43,289 bases of DNA, from assembly GCA_004213995.1 (NCBI GenBank), contig SGZJ01000010.1, forward strand, positions 1-43,289, written 5' to 3'. The notes beneath the pieces are model-generated. The model was given only the letters and a program-made list of their open reading frames with translations, ran no database searches and had not been told where the DNA came from. Both the position numbers and the translations under genes were made by a program. Of the stretch, positions 14,800 to 24,211 are shown in pieces (positions within the stretch are counted from its first letter, which is position 1; each line of letters starts with the position of its first letter). The DNA is from Flavobacteriales bacterium (GTDB lineage: Bacteria; Bacteroidota; Bacteroidia; Flavobacteriales; Flavobacteriaceae).

Positions 14800-16443
14800 A
14801 TGAGAATTAACAGTTTAACATATAATTTTTTAAAAATAAAATTTTTAGGACTATTCTTCTTTGCTTTGTTTAACCAATTAAATGCTCAAGAGGCCTCAAG
14901 CTTTGTAGATACTACAAGTATTAGAATTGGAGAACAGATTAATTATAAAATCAATATTAAATTAGATTCATTAGATGAGATTAATTTTCCTAAAGCCAAA
15001 GACTTTGCCCCCTTTGAACTTATAAACGAATTTAAAGTAGATACTAACTATTTAGATAAAAAATTTATAATAAGTAAGCAGTTTGCTTTAACTTTTTTTG
15101 ACTCTGGCACATATTATATCCCTTCACAAAAATTAAGTCTTTTAGATAAAGAAATCGAATTAGATTCCTTTAAAGTAACAATTAACCCTGTAAAAATAGA
15201 CACCACTAAACAAGGCCTTTATGATATAAAACCTATTATGAAATCAAACACTAAGTTTGATTTTCTGTTTTGGCTTTATATTTTAATATTCATCATTGTC
15301 TTCTGTACTTTCTTATACTTTAAAAATCAGATTTTCTCATTTTTTACAATTAATAAATTGGAAGTAGAATATCTAACACCTTATGAAAAGGCTGTAACTG
15401 AGCTGTCAAAAATTAAAAACCTCAATTACCTTTCTGAAATTGACATCAAAACTTATTATTCAGATTTAACATTTGTCATTAGAAATTTTATTGAAGAAAA
15501 AATTATAGATAATGCATTAGAGTGTACAACAAAAGAATTAATTCAGAAACTCTCTTTATTAAAAACATCAAAGAAACTAAACTTTTCTAATTCAACTTTA
15601 AAAAATATTGAAGATGTATTTTCCAGAGCAGACCTTGTTAAGTTTGCAAAATATGAGCCAGATACTCAATCTGCATCAACTGATTTAGAAACACTAACCA
15701 AGGAGCTTGAAAAGATTAAATTAATATTGCCTGAACCTTCTGAGGAAGAATTAGAAAAAAATCTTAAAATTCAAGAAGACCTCAGAAGAAAAAGATTAAA
15801 AAATAGAAATAACAAAATTGCTATATACTCACTATTATCTCTATTTCTTATTTATTTAACTGCTTCTATAATTTATGGTTTTACTTACGTAAATGATAAG
15901 ATATTTCAAAAACAAAATTTGATATTTCTTGAATCTGACAATTGGGTTAGCTCTAGTTATGGTGCTCCACCAATTACAATTTCAACCCCAGAGGTGTTAA
16001 TTAGAAATACTGATAGCCTTACATTTAGTGTAATCGAAGCCTCTTCAAAATCAGAATTTAGTTTTAATAATATTAAAGATCCATTATATATTACACTTAC
16101 TAATTTTAAACTTACTGAAAACAGCTCTAGTATTAAACTACAAGATGTAATGGTTAGCTCTATAGAAACTATTGAAAAACTAGGAGTTAAAAACATCATT
16201 ACTAAATTTGAAAAATTTCAAACTCCCAATGAAGCAGAAGGATTAATGATTTATGGATCTGCAGATTTTCCTGTGGATAAGCCAAATCAATTTAGAAAGT
16301 CAAAATATAAAATATTTGGATTTATCAACAATCAAGATTATAAGCAGATCTTTATTTCATGGGAAGAAAATGACAACTATATTGTTGAAATTATTGACAG
16401 AATTATAAACTCTATTGAATTAGTAAAAAACAAAACAAACTAA
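14800..16443 (+). CDS. BatD-like membrane protein with extra C-terminal domain (Bat operon, unnamed)
   Basis: A 547-residue protein. A signal peptide (about 1-29, ending FNQLNAQ) precedes a BatD-like beta domain (about 31-130) and a first membrane segment (about 155-175). Then comes a helical cytoplasmic region (about 190-340), including SRADLVKFAKYEPD, which resembles the BatD C-terminal helices. A second membrane segment (about 341-362) leads to a ~185-residue outside domain with no motif I recognise. Flavobacteria often carry an extra gene at this position between DUF58 and batA. It overlaps batA by one base (TAATG). Role unknown; a scaffold for vWA proteins is an inference. Confidence 0.8.
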   Translation: MRINSLTYNFLKIKFLGLFFFALFNQLNAQEASSFVDTTSIRIGEQINYKINIKLDSLDEINFPKAKDFAPFELINEFKVDTNYLDKKFIISKQFALTFFDSGTYYIPSQKLSLLDKEIELDSFKVTINPVKIDTTKQGLYDIKPIMKSNTKFDFLFWLYILIFIIVFCTFLYFKNQIFSFFTINKLEVEYLTPYEKAVTELSKIKNLNYLSEIDIKTYYSDLTFVIRNFIEEKIIDNALECTTKELIQKLSLLKTSKKLNFSNSTLKNIEDVFSRADLVKFAKYEPDTQSASTDLETLTKELEKIKLILPEPSEEELEKNLKIQEDLRRKRLKNRNNKIAIYSLLSLFLIYLTASIIYGFTYVNDKIFQKQNLIFLESDNWVSSSYGAPPITISTPEVLIRNTDSLTFSVIEASSKSEFSFNNIKDPLYITLTNFKLTENSSSIKLQDVMVSSIETIEKLGVKNIITKFEKFQTPNEAEGLMIYGSADFPVDKPNQFRKSKYKIFGFINNQDYKQIFISWEENDNYIVEIIDRIINSIELVKNKTN

Positions 16444-17447
16444 TGACTTTTAAAATACAGTTTCTAAATCCCGAGTTTTTTTGGTTGCTACTAATAGTCC
16501 CAATCGCTTGTATTTGGTTTATTTTGAAAAAAAATAAGTTCAATAATTCGATATCAGTTCCAAACACAAGCGCTCTATTATCTCAATCTTCTGTTCTTCC
16601 AAAGCTAAAGCCAGTCTTAAATATTCTTAGAATTTTATCTCTAATATTTATAATTATAGCATTGGCAAGACCTCAGATAATTGATGTGACAACCAAAATT
16701 AAAAATAATCAAGGAATAGACATTGTAATGGCAATTGATGTTTCAGCCAGTATGTTAGCAAAAGATTTAAAGCCAAATAGATTAGAGGCCTTAAAAAATG
16801 TTGCTTCTAATTTTATTTTGGACAGAATTAATGATAGAATTGGTTTGGTTGAATATGCTGGAGAGAGTTATACAAAAACTCCGATTACTAGTGATAAGAA
16901 TATTATAATAAAATCACTTAACGAAATTAATTATAACACTATAATTGAGGGTGGAACTGCTATAGGAATGGGATTAGCTACATCTGTTAATAGGATAAAG
17001 GACAGTAAAGCCAAAAGCAAAGTTATTATTTTGTTGACTGATGGGGTTAATAATTCTGGGTTTATAGATCCAAATACAGCTGCTGAATTAGCAATTGAAT
17101 ATGGAATAAAAATATACACGATTGGCATAGGCACTAATGGAATGGCTCTTTCACCTGTTGGAATTGATAATAACGGAAAATTCAGTTATGCAAAAATTCA
17201 AGTTGAAATTGATGAAAATTTACTTATTGAAATTGCAGAAACGACTGGTGGTAAATACTTTAGAGCTACTAATAACAAGAAATTACAAGAAATTTACAGT
17301 GAAATAAACAAATTAGAAAAATCAGATGTTGAAGAAATTAAATACTATAATCATGATGAAAAATATAGATTTTATATTTTACTGGCTATTATATTTTTGA
17401 CAACTGAACTAGTCTTGAAATATACACTCTTTAGAAGCTTTATATAA
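16443..17447 (+). CDS. batA: BatA, membrane-anchored von Willebrand A protein
   Basis: A 334-residue protein with two N-terminal membrane helices (about 12-29 and 60-76), a vWA domain and a C-terminal membrane helix. The metal-ion-dependent adhesion site is complete: Asp99, Ser101, Ser103 (DVSAS), Thr in GGTAIGMGL, and Asp in LLTDGVNNSG. Bat proteins were named for aerotolerance in Bacteroides fragilis; their molecular role is unsettled. The stop and the batB start overlap by one base. Confidence 0.94.
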   Translation: MTFKIQFLNPEFFWLLLIVPIACIWFILKKNKFNNSISVPNTSALLSQSSVLPKLKPVLNILRILSLIFIIIALARPQIIDVTTKIKNNQGIDIVMAIDVSASMLAKDLKPNRLEALKNVASNFILDRINDRIGLVEYAGESYTKTPITSDKNIIIKSLNEINYNTIIEGGTAIGMGLATSVNRIKDSKAKSKVIILLTDGVNNSGFIDPNTAAELAIEYGIKIYTIGIGTNGMALSPVGIDNNGKFSYAKIQVEIDENLLIEIAETTGGKYFRATNNKKLQEIYSEINKLEKSDVEEIKYYNHDEKYRFYILLAIIFLTTELVLKYTLFRSFI

Positions 17448-18493
17448 TGTATCAACTAGAAGAAAAAATATGGTTTTGGTTAATGGTTCTTCCAATATTG
17501 GCAGCTATTTTATTTTTCATTAATGAAATATGGAAAACCCGTACTCAACAAGGATTTATTACACAATCCTCTCTACTAAAGTTAAGCCCTGATTATTCAA
17601 GGTTCAAGCCTTATCTGAAAATGTTTATTAACATATTATCATTAATACTATTGATTTTTGCTATGGTTAATTTTCAAGTTGGAACTAAAATTGAAAGCTA
17701 TAAAAGGTTTGGTGTTGATATAGTGTTTGCAATTGATGTTTCTAGAAGTATGCTTGCTGAAGATGTTGCTCCAAATAGACTAGAGAAGTCTAAACAAATT
17801 GTTAATCAAATTATTAATAAACTTACAAGTGACAGAGTAGGTATTGTTGCCTATGCAGGAAAGGCATTTCCACAACTTCCAATAACTACTGACTATTCAT
17901 CTGCAAAGATGTTTTTAAGTAATATGAACACAGATATGATATCTTCTCAAGGCACTGCTATTGATGAGGCAATACAGCTATCATCTACATATTTTGATGA
18001 AAACATCAACACTTCTAAATTATTGATAATTATATCTGACGGAGAAGACCATAATAACAGTTCTCTAGACATTGCAAAAATGGCTGCTCAAAAGGGAATA
18101 AAAATACATACAATTGGAGTTGGAAAAGAAAAAGGATCTCCAATCCCAATGAAAAAAAATGGTATTACTCAAAACTATAAGAGAGATAATAATAATGAAG
18201 TTGTTATTACAAAACTTAATAAAAAAGTTTTAACTGATATAGCTGAAATCACACAAGGAACCTTCATTATTGGTCAAAACACCTCATTTGTAATAAATGA
18301 AATAGATAAAATTTTACTAGAAACTGAAAAGACAGAATTTGAAAGCACACAGTTCTCTGATTATAAGGATCAGTTTCAGTTATTTATTTTTATAGCCTTA
18401 ATGTTCTTATTTTTAGATATATTTCTGTTTGATTCTAAGACAAGTTGGATAAAAAAATTAAACTTATTTAATGATAACAATGCTGCAAAATAA
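17447..18493 (+). CDS. batB: BatB, membrane-anchored von Willebrand A protein
   Basis: A 348-residue paralogue of BatA with the same layout: two N-terminal helices, a vWA domain, and a C-terminal helix near 305-325. The metal site is intact (Asp97, Ser99, Ser101 in DVSRS; Thr in QGTAID; Asp in IISDGEDH). It is presumed to act together with BatA at the inner membrane. Its last 23 bases overlap batC. Confidence 0.94.
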   Translation: MYQLEEKIWFWLMVLPILAAILFFINEIWKTRTQQGFITQSSLLKLSPDYSRFKPYLKMFINILSLILLIFAMVNFQVGTKIESYKRFGVDIVFAIDVSRSMLAEDVAPNRLEKSKQIVNQIINKLTSDRVGIVAYAGKAFPQLPITTDYSSAKMFLSNMNTDMISSQGTAIDEAIQLSSTYFDENINTSKLLIIISDGEDHNNSSLDIAKMAAQKGIKIHTIGVGKEKGSPIPMKKNGITQNYKRDNNNEVVITKLNKKVLTDIAEITQGTFIIGQNTSFVINEIDKILLETEKTEFESTQFSDYKDQFQLFIFIALMFLFLDIFLFDSKTSWIKKLNLFNDNNAAK

Positions 18494-19271
18494 AATTAAT
18501 AAAACATTAATTAATTATGCCCTACTGATGTTTATATCTATGGGAAGTATAATGTCTCAGCAAAATGAGTATGAATCTTTAATTAAAAAAGGAAATAATT
18601 CATTTGAAGATAACACAGCTCTTTCTGAACAAAATTACAGAAAAGCAATTTCATATAGTCCTGAATTTGTTAAAGGCCAATATAATTTTAGTAACAACCT
18701 ATATAAAAATGAATATTATGATGAGGCCTTACTTAATCAATTAGAGGCTTCAAAATATGCAAAGACCAGGGCAGATAAGCACCTGATATTTCATAATATT
18801 GGTAACATACTGATGAAGAAAAAAATGTGTAAAGAAGCTGTTGAGGCTTATAAAAATGCACTTAAAAATAACCCTAAAGATGATGAGTCAAGATACAATT
18901 TAGCTTTGGCTAAAGATTGTGCTAAGGATGAAAATGAAAATGAAAAGGAAAGTGAAGGTGAAGATGAAGACGAGGATAAAGAAAAGGATAAAGAAAAAGA
19001 TGAAAATGAAGATCAAAAAGAGGATAAAGATCAGCAGGGAGATGACGAAAAACAAAATGAAGACCAAGATCAAAAAGAAAATAATAAAGATGATAATGAT
19101 CAAAAAGGAGATGACAAAAGTAAAGATGAAAAGCCTAAAGAAAAGAAATTGTCACCACAACAAATAAAAAATATCTTAGAGGCAATGAATCAAGAAGAAA
19201 GTAAAGTTCAAGAAAAAATGAATGCAAAAAAATTAAAAGGAGTTAAATTAAAAAATGAAAAAGACTGGTAA
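18471..19271 (+). CDS. batC: BatC, TPR protein with long charged linker
   Basis: Signal peptide (about 1-29), tetratricopeptide repeats (about 35-147), then a strikingly charged linker at 151-226 made almost entirely of Asp, Glu, Lys, Asn and Gln. A conserved C-terminal helix follows (SPQQIKNILEAMNQEE, about 228-243), ending KNEKDW as in other BatC proteins. Two starts are possible, at 18471 and 18480; both keep the signal peptide, and both lie inside batB. The one-base overlap with batD continues the coupling. TPRs suggest a protein-protein role with BatA/BatB. Confidence 0.9.
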   Translation: MITMLQNKINKTLINYALLMFISMGSIMSQQNEYESLIKKGNNSFEDNTALSEQNYRKAISYSPEFVKGQYNFSNNLYKNEYYDEALLNQLEASKYAKTRADKHLIFHNIGNILMKKKMCKEAVEAYKNALKNNPKDDESRYNLALAKDCAKDENENEKESEGEDEDEDKEKDKEKDENEDQKEDKDQQGDDEKQNEDQDQKENNKDDNDQKGDDKSKDEKPKEKKLSPQQIKNILEAMNQEESKVQEKMNAKKLKGVKLKNEKDW

Positions 19272-21028
19272 TGAGTTATAAATACTTACTAAATATTGCT
19301 TTACTTTTCATTAACTTAAATGTTTTCTGTCAAATTAACTTTGAAGCTAAATTAAGTAAAAGTACTCTAGGGGTTAACGAAAGATTACGTGTGGAATTTT
19401 CAATAAATGAAGACGGCGACAATTTTTCACCTCCTGACTTTATGAATTTTAAAGTAGTTGGTGGCCCATCCCAATCTATTAAGAATTCCTGGGTTAATGG
19501 AGATAGATCTTACAGTAAATCTTACACTTATTTTCTTTCTCCGATTAAAACAGGCACTTACAGTATAGGTCAAGCTACAATTGAAGTAGATGGAAAGGTT
19601 TATAAAACACTACCACTGGAAATTAAAGTTGTGGGTGCTGTAAAAAACCCTAACAAGGAAAACGACCCAAATTATGTTTCAGATAGTGAAATCTATTTAA
19701 CTTCAGAAATATCAAAAAGATCCCCATATTTAAATGAAGGGTTTTCAGTTGTTTATAAATTATATTTTTCATCTAATATTGGTATCACAAATTGGAGAGA
19801 ATTGTCCTCTCCAAGGTATACTGATTTCTGGAGTCAAAATATCGACATCGATAACTATACCATTGAAGATGGGACATATAAAGGAAAGCCATCTAGATAT
19901 GTGATCCTGAAAAAAACTGTTCTTTACCCTCAAAAAGAAGGTGAATTAACAATCGAGCCTTTATCGCTAGACATAACACTACAATTACCAACTAATAGAA
20001 GAGATTTCTTTGGACAGAGGATTACTAAATCTTCACAAAAAGTCGTAACCTCTGGAGATCAAATAATTAGTGTAAAACAATTACCTAATTTAAATAAACC
20101 AAAAGATTATAACGGAGCAGTTGGATCATTTAATTTTGTAGCCACAACTTCAAAACGACAACTTTCAGTTTCAGAGGCTCTAGAGCTAGAACTTGAAATT
20201 AAAGGAAATGGAAACTTAAAATTATTTCAACTCCCAAAACTTAGTCTCCCTTCTTCTTTAGAGATTTATGAGCCTGAAAAAACAGAAAACATTTCTACAA
20301 ACATTAGTGGCATGAGAGGATCTATTCGTGATATATACACAATAGTTCCTTCCAAACCAGGAAAATATAAAATTCCTAAAATAGAGTTTTCTTATTTTGA
20401 TATTAATTCAAAAAAATATAAAACAATTAGCTCAAATGAAATCAATATTGATGTAGATGGAGAGGAGTGGGGTAGTGAAAAAGATAAAAATATTAATTCA
20501 AAAATTAAACCAAAAAACACAACACTTAAATTCCTTCCTTTTAAAACAAAATCTAAATTTGTTAAAATTAAGACTAAATCTTTTTTTAATACAAATATTT
20601 TTTGGGGGTTATTAATATTGCCATTTATTATTACAATACTAATAATCATATTAATGAATTATTTGAATGGTCGCAATAAGTTTTTGAATACTAATATATC
20701 CATCAAGTCTAGAAAATTAGCAAAAAAGTATTTACTAGGTGCAAAATCTAAGCTTGGTAGTAAAAAAGAATTTTATGAATCTCTTGATAAAGCGTTACAT
20801 AATTATCTTAAATCAATTACTTTATTCGATAATAGTAACTACTCAAAAATTAATATTCAAAAAGAGTTAGAGAAAAGAAATATAGACGCTAATATTATTA
20901 AAGCATTAAATCAATTATTTAGTAATTGTGAAATGGCTAGATATACTCCAATTACTAATGTTGAAATGGAATCTGACTACAAAACTGCTTTAGATATAAT
21001 AGCAGAGATTGATAAATCAATTAATTAA
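19271..21028 (+). CDS. batD: BatD, oxygen-tolerance protein
   Basis: A 585-residue membrane-anchored protein. A signal peptide (about 1-21, ending NVFCQ) is followed by tandem beta-sandwich BatD domains typified by LGVNERLRVEFSINEDG. A membrane segment lies near 440-463 (FWGLLILPFIITILIIIL), and a cytoplasmic helical tail includes FSNCEMARYTP. It is the second BatD-like protein in this operon. The batE start is 2 bp downstream of its stop. Confidence 0.93.
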   Translation: MSYKYLLNIALLFINLNVFCQINFEAKLSKSTLGVNERLRVEFSINEDGDNFSPPDFMNFKVVGGPSQSIKNSWVNGDRSYSKSYTYFLSPIKTGTYSIGQATIEVDGKVYKTLPLEIKVVGAVKNPNKENDPNYVSDSEIYLTSEISKRSPYLNEGFSVVYKLYFSSNIGITNWRELSSPRYTDFWSQNIDIDNYTIEDGTYKGKPSRYVILKKTVLYPQKEGELTIEPLSLDITLQLPTNRRDFFGQRITKSSQKVVTSGDQIISVKQLPNLNKPKDYNGAVGSFNFVATTSKRQLSVSEALELELEIKGNGNLKLFQLPKLSLPSSLEIYEPEKTENISTNISGMRGSIRDIYTIVPSKPGKYKIPKIEFSYFDINSKKYKTISSNEINIDVDGEEWGSEKDKNINSKIKPKNTTLKFLPFKTKSKFVKIKTKSFFNTNIFWGLLILPFIITILIIILMNYLNGRNKFLNTNISIKSRKLAKKYLLGAKSKLGSKKEFYESLDKALHNYLKSITLFDNSNYSKINIQKELEKRNIDANIIKALNQLFSNCEMARYTPITNVEMESDYKTALDIIAEIDKSIN

Positions 21029-21030
21029 TT

Positions 21031-21777
21031 ATGAGACACTTTTTATTTTTCATTTTATTTGTTAATCTAAGTTTTTCTCAACAAAATGATATTTTTGTTG
21101 TTGCTAACGAAAAATATAATTCCTTAGATTTTGTTGGTGCCATTGAAAAGTATAATGAACTTTTGAAAGGAGGATTTCACTCATCAGAATTGTATTTTAA
21201 TTTAGGAAATGCTTATTACAAGCTTGATAGCTTAGCTCAAAGTATTTATTATTATGAAAAAGGTTTAAAATATTTTCCAAATGATTCTAGTTTAATTCAA
21301 AATTTAGCATACTTAAATAATCTTACAATAGATGATATTGAATCTTTGCCTGAAGATATTGTTAGTAAGCAATTAAATTATTTGCTAAACTATTTTTCTT
21401 TTAATACCTGGTCAATAATTACTATAATTACAGCTATACTTTCTTGTGTCATATTTCTGTTATATTTTTTATCTAAGTCATCTATATACAAACGGACATA
21501 TTTCACAATATTTATACTATCTTTCATATTAACATCCTCTTTGTTATTTGTAAATTTTAAAATTTATAACGTTCAAACAACTATTGAATTTGGAATAGTT
21601 TATAAAGATGTAATTGAAGTTAATTTTGAACCAAATGAAAAAAGTGAAGTTTTATTTGAAATTCACGAAGGAACAAAAGTTGAAGTAATAGAGAACTTTG
21701 ACATGGATTGGTTAAAAATAAAATTGTCGAATGGACAAACTGGTTGGGTTATAAAAAATCAAATTAAAATCATATGA
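21031..21777 (+). CDS. batE: BatE, TPR and SH3-domain protein
   Basis: A 248-residue protein. A signal peptide (about 1-17) precedes TPR repeats (about 20-100; ELYFNLGNAYYKLDSLAQSI). Two membrane helices (about 127-147 and 156-175) lead to a bacterial SH3 domain at the end (EGTKVEVIENFDMDWLKIKL, then GQTGWV). SH3b domains often contact peptidoglycan, so the tail may face the periplasm; this is inference. The stop overlaps the next gene's start in ATGA. Confidence 0.92.
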   Translation: MRHFLFFILFVNLSFSQQNDIFVVANEKYNSLDFVGAIEKYNELLKGGFHSSELYFNLGNAYYKLDSLAQSIYYYEKGLKYFPNDSSLIQNLAYLNNLTIDDIESLPEDIVSKQLNYLLNYFSFNTWSIITIITAILSCVIFLLYFLSKSSIYKRTYFTIFILSFILTSSLLFVNFKIYNVQTTIEFGIVYKDVIEVNFEPNEKSEVLFEIHEGTKVEVIENFDMDWLKIKLSNGQTGWVIKNQIKII

Positions 21778-22235
21778 TTACATTAGATCTAGTAGAGAGC
21801 GCTCAAAAAAAATGGGGTGAAGGAATTGTTAAAATTGGAAGTTTGAAAAACAATTTCAAATTATGTAAAGAATTTACTTCTAGTTTTTTAAATGAAACAT
21901 ATAGTTTTAAAGAAGGTAAAATTTTGTTCAAACCAACAAAAGCATGTGAAGAACAATTTCGTCCTAATTTCGATATGGCTTTGTCCTATTTTATTGGCGG
22001 AAATGATTCGTTTTGTAATGAAGACGAAGGTTTTGCAATGAAACCTTGGGTTAAGGTTTTATTTGAAAACTCTGGAGTTATAATTGAGAAAAATAGAGCA
22101 ATTGCAATGGGTAATTATTTCTTCACTGACTTAAATGGAAATACAATAAAAGTTGAATACTCTTTTGGTTATAAATTAATTGATTCTAAGTTATATATTG
22201 ACTTACATCATTCTTCATTACCTTTTACGCATTAG
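21774..22235 (+). CDS. Iota-class carbonic anhydrase-like protein (NTF2 fold, COG4337-type)
   Basis: A 153-residue protein matching the small NTF2-fold family to which iota carbonic anhydrases belong. Family blocks visible are FKPTKACEEQFRP (52-64), ALSYFIGG (69-76), EDEGFAMKPWVKVLFEN (83-99), AMGNYFFTD (111-119) and the hallmark HHSSLP at 145-150. By analogy with the metal-free cyanobacterial enzyme, Thr55, Tyr72 and Ser147 are candidate bicarbonate-contact residues. No signal peptide is seen, so it should be cytoplasmic, unlike several exported relatives. Database entries of this family are sometimes mislabelled phosphoribosyl-AMP cyclohydrolase. It overlaps batE by 4 nt and so is made with the Bat operon. 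Family assignment is good; CO2 hydration here is inferred. Confidence 0.75.
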   Translation: MITLDLVESAQKKWGEGIVKIGSLKNNFKLCKEFTSSFLNETYSFKEGKILFKPTKACEEQFRPNFDMALSYFIGGNDSFCNEDEGFAMKPWVKVLFENSGVIIEKNRAIAMGNYFFTDLNGNTIKVEYSFGYKLIDSKLYIDLHHSSLPFTH

Positions 22236-22237
22236 TT

Positions 22238-22723
22238 TTATTTCAAAAAATTTGCTGAAATAAATCTACTTAATTCATTAAGGGGCTTATAATAAATTGA
22301 TAACTCAAGTTTATCTTGCTCTATTATTTTAAGAGAATTATTGGCTAGATTAAACACAAAAATTAATATAACTAGTATTAGAATGTTTTTTAAAAGTCCA
22401 AAAACACTTCCTAGAATTTTATTAAATAATCCTAATGCTACTAATTTTACGAGTTTTGTGGCAACTTTACCTAGGATTGAAACAATTAGTATGGTTAATA
22501 TAAATAATATAACATTTGATAGAATTATTATATAACCCTCTTTCCAGTTAAAATACTGCTTAGACATTAAATAATTAGATAAATCACCATTGTATTGAGT
22601 AGCTAAATATATACCTAGTACCAATCCAATAACAGATGCTATTTCAATAATGAAGCCCTTATATAACCCTTTTATAAACCCATAAATAAGGAAGATTGAA
22701 ATAAAAATATCTATATAATTCAT
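22238..22723 (-). CDS. CvpA-family membrane protein
   Basis: A 161-residue inner-membrane protein with four predicted helices: YIDIFISIFLIYGFIKG, IEIASVIGLVLGIYLA, YIIILSNVILFILTILIVSI and LLKNILILVILIFVFNLA. The NYIDIF opening, FIIEIASVIGLVLG stretch and NKILGSVFGLLK segment are typical of CvpA (colicin V production) proteins, whose molecular role is poorly known. It runs convergently with the carbonic-anhydrase-like gene, with stops only 2 bp apart and no terminator between. Confidence 0.9.
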   Translation of the reverse strand: MNYIDIFISIFLIYGFIKGLYKGFIIEIASVIGLVLGIYLATQYNGDLSNYLMSKQYFNWKEGYIIILSNVILFILTILIVSILGKVATKLVKLVALGLFNKILGSVFGLLKNILILVILIFVFNLANNSLKIIEQDKLELSIYYKPLNELSRFISANFLK

Positions 22724-22808: not shown

Positions 22809-23162
22809 ATGATTAATTCTAAGTTAAAAGAAAGATGGGGAATATTAACTCATAAATTATCTATTGATTTTCGTGATGGTGATGAGATTGATTTAGATTC
22901 GATTATTTATTTAATCGGAGTTCAAGAGTTGCAACAGCTTCATTCTAAATTTAACAAGAATCAAAAACTAGATTTAATGCACATAGCTATATGTAAATTA
23001 TTAAGTGATTATGGTTATTATGAATTTGATTATATAGATGAGCAAGGATGGCCACACTATAAATGTCTAAAGCAACTACCTAACTTGAAGGCTGGGGAAC
23101 AGTCCATCTTAATGAAAGACGCAATAGTTAACTATTTTCTTAAATCTAATTATATTCAATAA
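22809..23162 (+). CDS. Conserved-looking hypothetical protein upstream of pheS
   Basis: A 117-residue soluble protein that I do not recognise by function. It has an amphipathic start (LKERWGILTHKLSIDF), an acidic Asp/Glu turn (DGDEIDLDSIIYLIGVQELQQL), a helical middle (DLMHIAICKLLSDYGYYEF) and an aromatic patch (DEQGWPHYKCL). There is no signal peptide or membrane segment. I recall similar small proteins before pheS in other flavobacteria, but this is memory rather than a search. It has its own promoter and lies 32 bp before pheS, so co-transcription with the tRNA synthetase is likely. Confidence 0.75.
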   Translation: MINSKLKERWGILTHKLSIDFRDGDEIDLDSIIYLIGVQELQQLHSKFNKNQKLDLMHIAICKLLSDYGYYEFDYIDEQGWPHYKCLKQLPNLKAGEQSILMKDAIVNYFLKSNYIQ

Positions 23163-23194
23163 GAATGATTAAATTTGACATTTGACTAAACAAC

Positions 23195-24211
23195 ATGATT
23201 GAACAAATAGCACATAATATTAAAGAAATTGAATCTTTTAAGTCTTCTTCGAAAGATGAAATTGAAAATTTTAGAATAAAGTATTTAGGTAAAAAAGGCC
23301 TTGTTAACTTTTACTTCTCAGAATTTAAAAATGTTGATAATAGCAAAAAAAAGGAATATGGTTTAAGTATAAATAAACTGAAAATATCCGCACAAAATAA
23401 ATTTAATGAGTTAAATTCTTTAGTTTCAAGTAACTCAACCTTATCTCAACTAAACGATTTAACTAGACCAGGTAATTCCATTGAAATTGGTTCAAAACAT
23501 CCTATTACAATTGTAAAAAATAGAATTATTGATATTTTTTCTAGTATTGGATATAATGTTAGTGAAGGACCAGAAATTGAAGATGACTGGCACAATTTCA
23601 CTGCACTTAATTTACCTGAACATCACCCTGCAAGGGATATGCAAGACACTTTCTTTATACAGACAAACCCTGATTTATTATTAAGAACACATACTAGTTC
23701 TGTTCAAGTAAGATATATGGAAAGTAATAAACCTCCAATTAGAACAATTTCTCCAGGAAGAGTGTATAGAAACGAAGCCATTTCAGCAAGATCTCATTGT
23801 TTTTTTCATCAAGTTGAAGGCCTGTATATTGATGAAAATGTCAGTTTTGCAGATCTTAAACAGACTTTAGAATTTTTTACCACACAGCTTTTTGGTAAAT
23901 CAAAAATTAGATTAAGGCCATCTTATTTCCCTTTTACTGAACCAAGCGCGGAAGTAGATGTTTATTGGGGCTTAAAAAATGAAACAGACTACAAAATGAC
24001 TAAGGGGACAGGTTGGTTAGAAATTATGGGTTGTGGAATGGTTGACCCTAATGTCTTGGACAATTGTGGGATAGATTCTAAAAAATATTCAGGTTTTGCA
24101 TTTGGAATGGGTATAGATAGAATAGCTCTTTTGCTTCACCAAATTAAAGATATTAGACTACTTAGTGAAAATGATACTAGATTTATTAAACAATTTAAAT
24201 CAACAATTTAA
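23195..24211 (+). CDS. pheS: Phenylalanine-tRNA ligase alpha subunit
   Basis: Catalytic subunit of the alpha2beta2 enzyme that charges tRNA-Phe. An N-terminal coiled coil (about 1-90) precedes the class II core: GPEIEDDWHNFTALNLPEHH, RTHTSSVQVRYM, ISPGRVYRNEAISARSH (motif 2), WLEIMGCGMVDPNVL and motif 3 FAFGMGIDRIALLLH. It is 338 residues, normal length. pheT is not adjacent in this window. The last four bases overlap the end of gpsA on the other strand. Confidence 0.97.
   Translation: MIEQIAHNIKEIESFKSSSKDEIENFRIKYLGKKGLVNFYFSEFKNVDNSKKKEYGLSINKLKISAQNKFNELNSLVSSNSTLSQLNDLTRPGNSIEIGSKHPITIVKNRIIDIFSSIGYNVSEGPEIEDDWHNFTALNLPEHHPARDMQDTFFIQTNPDLLLRTHTSSVQVRYMESNKPPIRTISPGRVYRNEAISARSHCFFHQVEGLYIDENVSFADLKQTLEFFTTQLFGKSKIRLRPSYFPFTEPSAEVDVYWGLKNETDYKMTKGTGWLEIMGCGMVDPNVLDNCGIDSKKYSGFAFGMGIDRIALLLHQIKDIRLLSENDTRFIKQFKSTI

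Follow-up and report, generated by a model that had tools for sequence, protein, structure and literature searches.

Why does a Flavobacteriales bacterium carry a gene resembling a metal-free carbonic anhydrase (CA) at the end of its Bat operon? Textbooks present carbonic anhydrase as a zinc enzyme, one that places a notable demand on zinc in the ocean, and to our knowledge there is little evidence of when cells use the metal-free class, which was described in 2021. The window considered here, i.e., the whole stretch of DNA that was analysed, comprises 43,289 nucleotides of contig SGZJ01000010.1 (assembly GCA_004213995.1), and the gene occupies positions 21,774 to 22,235 of its forward strand. 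A first-pass annotation made from the sequence alone had recognized an iota-class CA and had coupled it to Bat; the identification holds, a functional coupling is not supported, and a connection to zinc had been overlooked.

By family and fold, the 153-aa product is a single-domain iota-CA of the COG4337 type, the metal-free branch, and is predicted to be cytoplasmic and catalytically active. Its sole NCBIfam match was NF047901, “metal-independent carbonic anhydrase” (E 1e-28, 100 bits), a narrow equivalog built as a 205-position model of the longer form; the match begins at model position 52, and its score falls short of the equivalog cut-off of 350 bits. The PDB matches 7c5x (E 1.9e-78) and 7c5v (E 1.8e-23) are both iota-CAs, Bn86287 of Bigelowiella and all2909 of Anabaena, respectively (PMC8132391), with which the protein shares about 36–44% identity, the HHSS motif, and the catalytic Thr, Tyr, His, and Ser. 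A Pfam match to a ZGRF1-like family was rejected as chance (E 0.054), and there was no other Pfam match. An AlphaFold2 model (pLDDT 90.8) returned iota-CAs as all five of its best Foldseek matches (TM 0.91–0.93), and VIA-align placed it on 7c5v with Z 24.6 and an rmsd of 1.4 Å and on 7c5x with Z 23.3, the next unrelated NTF2-like fold following at Z 14.6; the NTF2-like folds nearest to the protein are these two structures, no other NTF2-like family supplies its best matches, and one domain spans the reading frame, as in prokaryotic COG4337-type iota-CAs. The COG4875-type iota-CAs (Thalassiosira, Burkholderia; structural relative 3h51) have the NTF2 fold and the HHSS motif as well, but are less similar to the model (Z 14.6). 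The COG4875 type is reported to be metal-dependent.

Thr55, Tyr72, and His145 are kept in 60 of 60 aligned relatives and Ser147 in 59, the remaining row being truncated; this conservation and the close fit to 7c5v bear out the earlier suggestion of a pocket containing Thr55, Tyr72, and Ser147. The equivalent residues of all2909 (Thr106, Tyr124, His197, and Ser199) are needed for activity, and mutants in them are dead or impaired (PMC8132391). By homology, Thr55 and Tyr72 would activate water with assistance from Ser147 and His145, and with no metal or zinc-bound hydroxide (PMC8132391). The Met1 column is invariant in all 60 relatives, with no N-terminal extension, so the subfamily begins at the domain and is predicted to be cytoplasmic, in keeping with the lack of a signal peptide remarked on previously; signal peptides are present in most described bacterial COG4337 proteins (PMC8132391). 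A cytoplasmic iota-CA would make bicarbonate from CO2, and since the described COG4337 homologues hydrate CO2 and show no clear dehydration (PMC8132391), such an enzyme would suit the supply of bicarbonate to carboxylases, a housekeeping role that had already been proposed and that we consider likely.

The gene fills an interval bounded upstream by batE (21,031 to 21,777, forward strand; TPR and SH3_3 domains), the last Bat gene, and downstream by the convergent cvpA (22,238 to 22,723, reverse strand; Colicin_V, PF02674). The remainder of the Bat operon, encoding a 547-aa protein, batA, batB, batC, and batD, precedes batE (14,800 to 21,028, forward strand), and a conserved gene for a 117-aa protein together with pheS (22,809 to 24,211, forward strand) serves to mark synteny of the interval across Flavobacteriaceae. 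Among the best 80 relatives in named genomes, iota-CA lies between batE and cvpA in 13 and elsewhere in the other 67; the adjacency singled out by the first-pass annotation is conserved within one clade and not beyond it. In outgroup Flavobacteriaceae, the order batE-[SulP]-beta-CA-cvpA-117aa-pheS was read across in seven genomes, and further partial loci agree with the batE-[SulP]-beta-CA-cvpA order. The congeners G150 and G152 are without iota-CA and hold a zinc beta-CA exactly between batE and cvpA, its start falling in TAATG at the point where, in the window, the batE stop and the iota-CA start overlap in ATGA (21,774 to 21,777, forward strand), as first noted. Given the beta-CA in these congeners and in the seven outgroup genomes, the 3′ end of Bat in Flavobacteriaceae is an old carbonic-anhydrase slot in which iota-CA is a replacement. 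The beta-CA (Pro_CA, PF00484) of this order shares with iota-CA its slot, its operon position, and its presumed reaction, but has an unrelated fold and the zinc ligands Cys-Asp-His-Cys, which iota-CA lacks.

A second in-situ exchange of the two classes occurs in genus g213, which belongs to another family of the order: one genome encodes a beta-CA (G291, L144:4781-5464) and another an iota-CA (G344, L145:5032-5493) between the same two flanking genes, which are 72% and 63% identical in the two genomes. A 39-nt upstream leader is common to both loci (local score 51 vs. 24 for the best of 500 shuffles).

Across 395 genomes of the order, iota-CA was found in 59, beta-CA in 224, and both in 9 (Fisher p 1.7e-12, a raw value that ignores relatedness), and the two classes are largely mutually exclusive. 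The window's own genus (g1) and genera g172, g203, g209, and g213 each contain species with iota-CA or with beta-CA and 0 genomes with both. In the nine dual-CA genomes, one iota copy is broken by three stops (G220) and five lie in longer open frames of 200–250 codons, whose products are perhaps exported. Beta-CA is absent from all 13 genomes with iota-CA in the Bat slot, each of which is incomplete. In the window's genome (75.6% complete), the iota-CA gene is single-copy, and searches found neither a beta-CA nor a match to the gamma-CA model PaaY, which does match in larger relatives; at that completeness, and with the search covering the beta and gamma classes, iota-CA is likely the only CA of the organism.

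In many relatives, iota-CA sits with genes for a Fur-family regulator, MerC, FolE, and ZigA/CobW (ZigA matching NF038288 at E 1.7e-167), and sometimes HisI and PhoX. The FolE of these loci is of the classical type, so they are not made only of zinc-free enzymes, and the regulator carries a FUR domain that the Zur, PerR, and Fur models matched weakly, the NCBIfam Zur match lying well below its cut-off. Tabulated over 80 named genomes, 28 have such a zinc locus together with a beta-CA, 7 the zinc locus only, 2 a beta-CA only, and 43 neither (p 7.6e-13, again raw and with relatedness ignored); one exception, locus L070, has the palindromic box discussed below 82 bp upstream of its CA, and counting it as a zinc locus post hoc gives 29/7/1/43. 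Some of the seven zinc-locus genomes without a beta-CA are incomplete MAGs, and in an independent-pairs test the well-supported branches of the CA tree provide only two contrasts between zinc and non-zinc loci, too few for a decision, although they mostly agree with the association. Where iota-CA coexists with beta-CA, it is mostly located in the zinc-starvation locus.

The palindrome TGCAACNNNGTTGCA, allowing at most one mismatch, has 49 matches in 31 of the 35 zinc loci (550 kb) vs. 2 in other loci (703 kb), with a chance expectation of 2.5 per Mb and the motif having been derived from these same zinc loci. Independently of that derivation, exact copies number 0–2 per genome genome-wide, and a perfect copy stands upstream of a DtxR-ZnuA operon (L185), and we regard TGCAACNNNGTTGCA as a candidate Bacteroidota Zur box. 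The adjacent zinc genes and the common box suggest that iota-CA in these relatives is under zinc control. The window's genome contains two exact copies, one of them between merC and a Fur/Zur-like gene, and a box with one mismatch upstream of zigA, and this zinc locus (MerC-box-Fur/Zur-like, box-ZigA) is without a CA gene. Within the window, no box with up to two mismatches was found, and the neighbours of iota-CA are Bat and CvpA, not zinc genes. With the gene away from the zinc locus and the window box-less, its CA is probably free of zinc control.

The explanation that we prefer, at a probability of about 0.7 for the whole, is that a CA which had served as a zinc-sparing backup took over the slot of the zinc enzyme and so became the sole, constitutive CA. 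In larger-genome Bacteroidota, iota-CA would be a backup located in a zinc-starvation locus beside a Fur/Zur-like repressor, with the zinc beta-CA doing the routine work; in the small-genome lineage of the window, it would have left the regulon and taken the beta-CA slot at the Bat 3′ end, where it is probably the only CA and constitutively expressed. Same-spot replacement, together with the zinc-cluster location in larger-genome relatives, suggests that iota-CA is a zinc-saving replacement. A wider history, in which iota-CA was first a Zur-type zinc-starvation backup in Bacteroidota, often co-encoded with a beta-CA-fold protein lacking zinc ligands, and then repeatedly displaced the zinc enzyme in situ in small-genome marine lineages until their only CA was zinc-free, seems to us slightly better than an even bet. 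The two in-situ swaps, the near-exclusivity, and the zinc-locus context suggest that iota-CA is equivalent to beta-CA in vivo and offer a concrete, testable answer to when the metal-free class is used, namely zinc sparing; if true, some cells would possess a single CA, one that works without zinc.

Alternatively, iota- and beta-CA may be gained and lost at the CA slot by chance, with no zinc-related selection, and the history of the slot lends this idea some substance in that the swaps may run both ways. In a tree of 1,933 columns (batA, batB, batD, pheS, and gpsA), the window and L046, both with iota-CA, are sister to the beta-CA-bearing G150 and G152, and the four together are sister to nine iota-slot genomes; by parsimony alone, one iota entry with a loss in G150/G152 is equal to two entries. 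In the CA tree, the slot iota-CAs group in a single clade (SH-aLRT 100) that also includes two members from outside Bat, and the beta-CA of G150/G152 belongs to a different beta subgroup from most slot enzymes; the congruent CA tree and this divergent beta-CA favour a single entry. The simplest history is one change from beta to iota, after which G150/G152 acquired a beta of another kind, probably in place of iota; two separate iota gains are possible. However, chance turnover does not predict that coexisting iota-CAs should be confined almost entirely to zinc loci sharing a box, and we consider it rather unlikely.

A function within the Bat (MoxR/VWA) aerotolerance system, such as the tuning of CO2/bicarbonate or pH, would accord with the ATGA overlap, the co-directional operon, and the age of the CA slot beside batE in Flavobacteriaceae, but the slot accepts an unrelated beta-CA across the family and in the two congeners, it is without any CA in one relative (L135/L200), SulP often stands between batE and the beta-CA, and most iota-CA loci are outside Bat. 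A slot that holds beta-CA, iota-CA, or nothing rules out Bat-coupled function as the main reading and undercuts the link drawn originally, leaving such a role a slim chance. That the fold is kept for some other NTF2-like function in vivo could be read from the missed NF047901 cut-off and from a cytoplasmic location unlike that of most described bacterial members (PMC8132391), but is very improbable given the invariant catalytic residues, the position-for-position replacement of beta-CA at two loci, and the SulP transporters that adjoin some iota-CA genes as they do beta-CA.

The zinc-sparing replacement has partial precedents. The Zur-regulated gamma-CA (Cam) of Pseudomonas and relatives (PMC2770081) and ytiB of Bacillus subtilis (PMC6103462) are likewise CA paralogues beside a COG0523 GTPase and Zur-linked genes that serve as backups under zinc limitation, and CA paralogues in Zur regulons are thus known for the gamma and beta types (PMC2770081; PMC6103462). 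Those belong to metal-type classes, whereas the class here is metal-free, occurs in Bacteroidota, and would later have left the regulon and become established as the principal CA. An adaptation of COG4337 proteins to low metal has already been proposed (PMC8132391); unlike all2909 and Bn86287, the subfamily of the window has no signal peptide or repeat, is predicted to be cytoplasmic, lies in Bat, zinc, or SulP loci, and replaces beta-CA. No report of iota-CA in zinc or Zur loci or of iota/beta displacement was found in the open-access literature searched. The protein itself belongs to a known family, and its apparent use in place of a zinc enzyme is what seems new.

Directly 3′ of the zinc-locus iota-CA in about 25 loci (e.g., L097:9477-9974), often with a 1-nt overlap, lies a gene of a 165-aa family with no Pfam or NCBIfam match. 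Its predicted fold is that of beta-CA over nearly the whole length (Z 15.8; pLDDT 77.9, moderate confidence), and the top 50 structure matches are all beta-CA or the related CS2 hydrolase; an hhalign profile comparison did not link the family to beta-CA. Cys9 and Asp12 are invariant, and since neither a His nor a second Cys is conserved, canonical zinc binding looks lost; the partner is possibly a zinc-less beta-CA relative co-encoded with the metal-free iota-CA.

Several further observations concern the boxes and loci surveyed. The merC, Fur/Zur-like, and zigA genes of the window's own genome (L196:6232-8410, contig C34) form, with their TGCAACNNNGTTGCA boxes, a candidate zinc regulon, and in Tenacibaculum ovolyticum (L198:5209-8540) a SulP/beta-CA cluster has, a few kb away, a Fur/Zur-like gene that is accompanied by two boxes. 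Close to the exact boxes at L195:4726-5110 and L187:1501-1821 are genes whose small products (about 100 aa) contain His and Cys and lack a Pfam match; they may be zinc-related proteins of the surface or periplasm. The alkaline phosphatase PhoX, an iron/calcium and not a zinc enzyme, is encoded in about ten loci (cluster 21, e.g., L086, L087, L117, L118, and L122), mostly zinc iota-CA loci, and is perhaps another zinc-sparing enzyme. Lastly, L048, L059, and L068 carry a flavobacterial-type iota-CA on contigs labelled Chloroflexi or Euryarchaeota, and their bin names are probably wrong.
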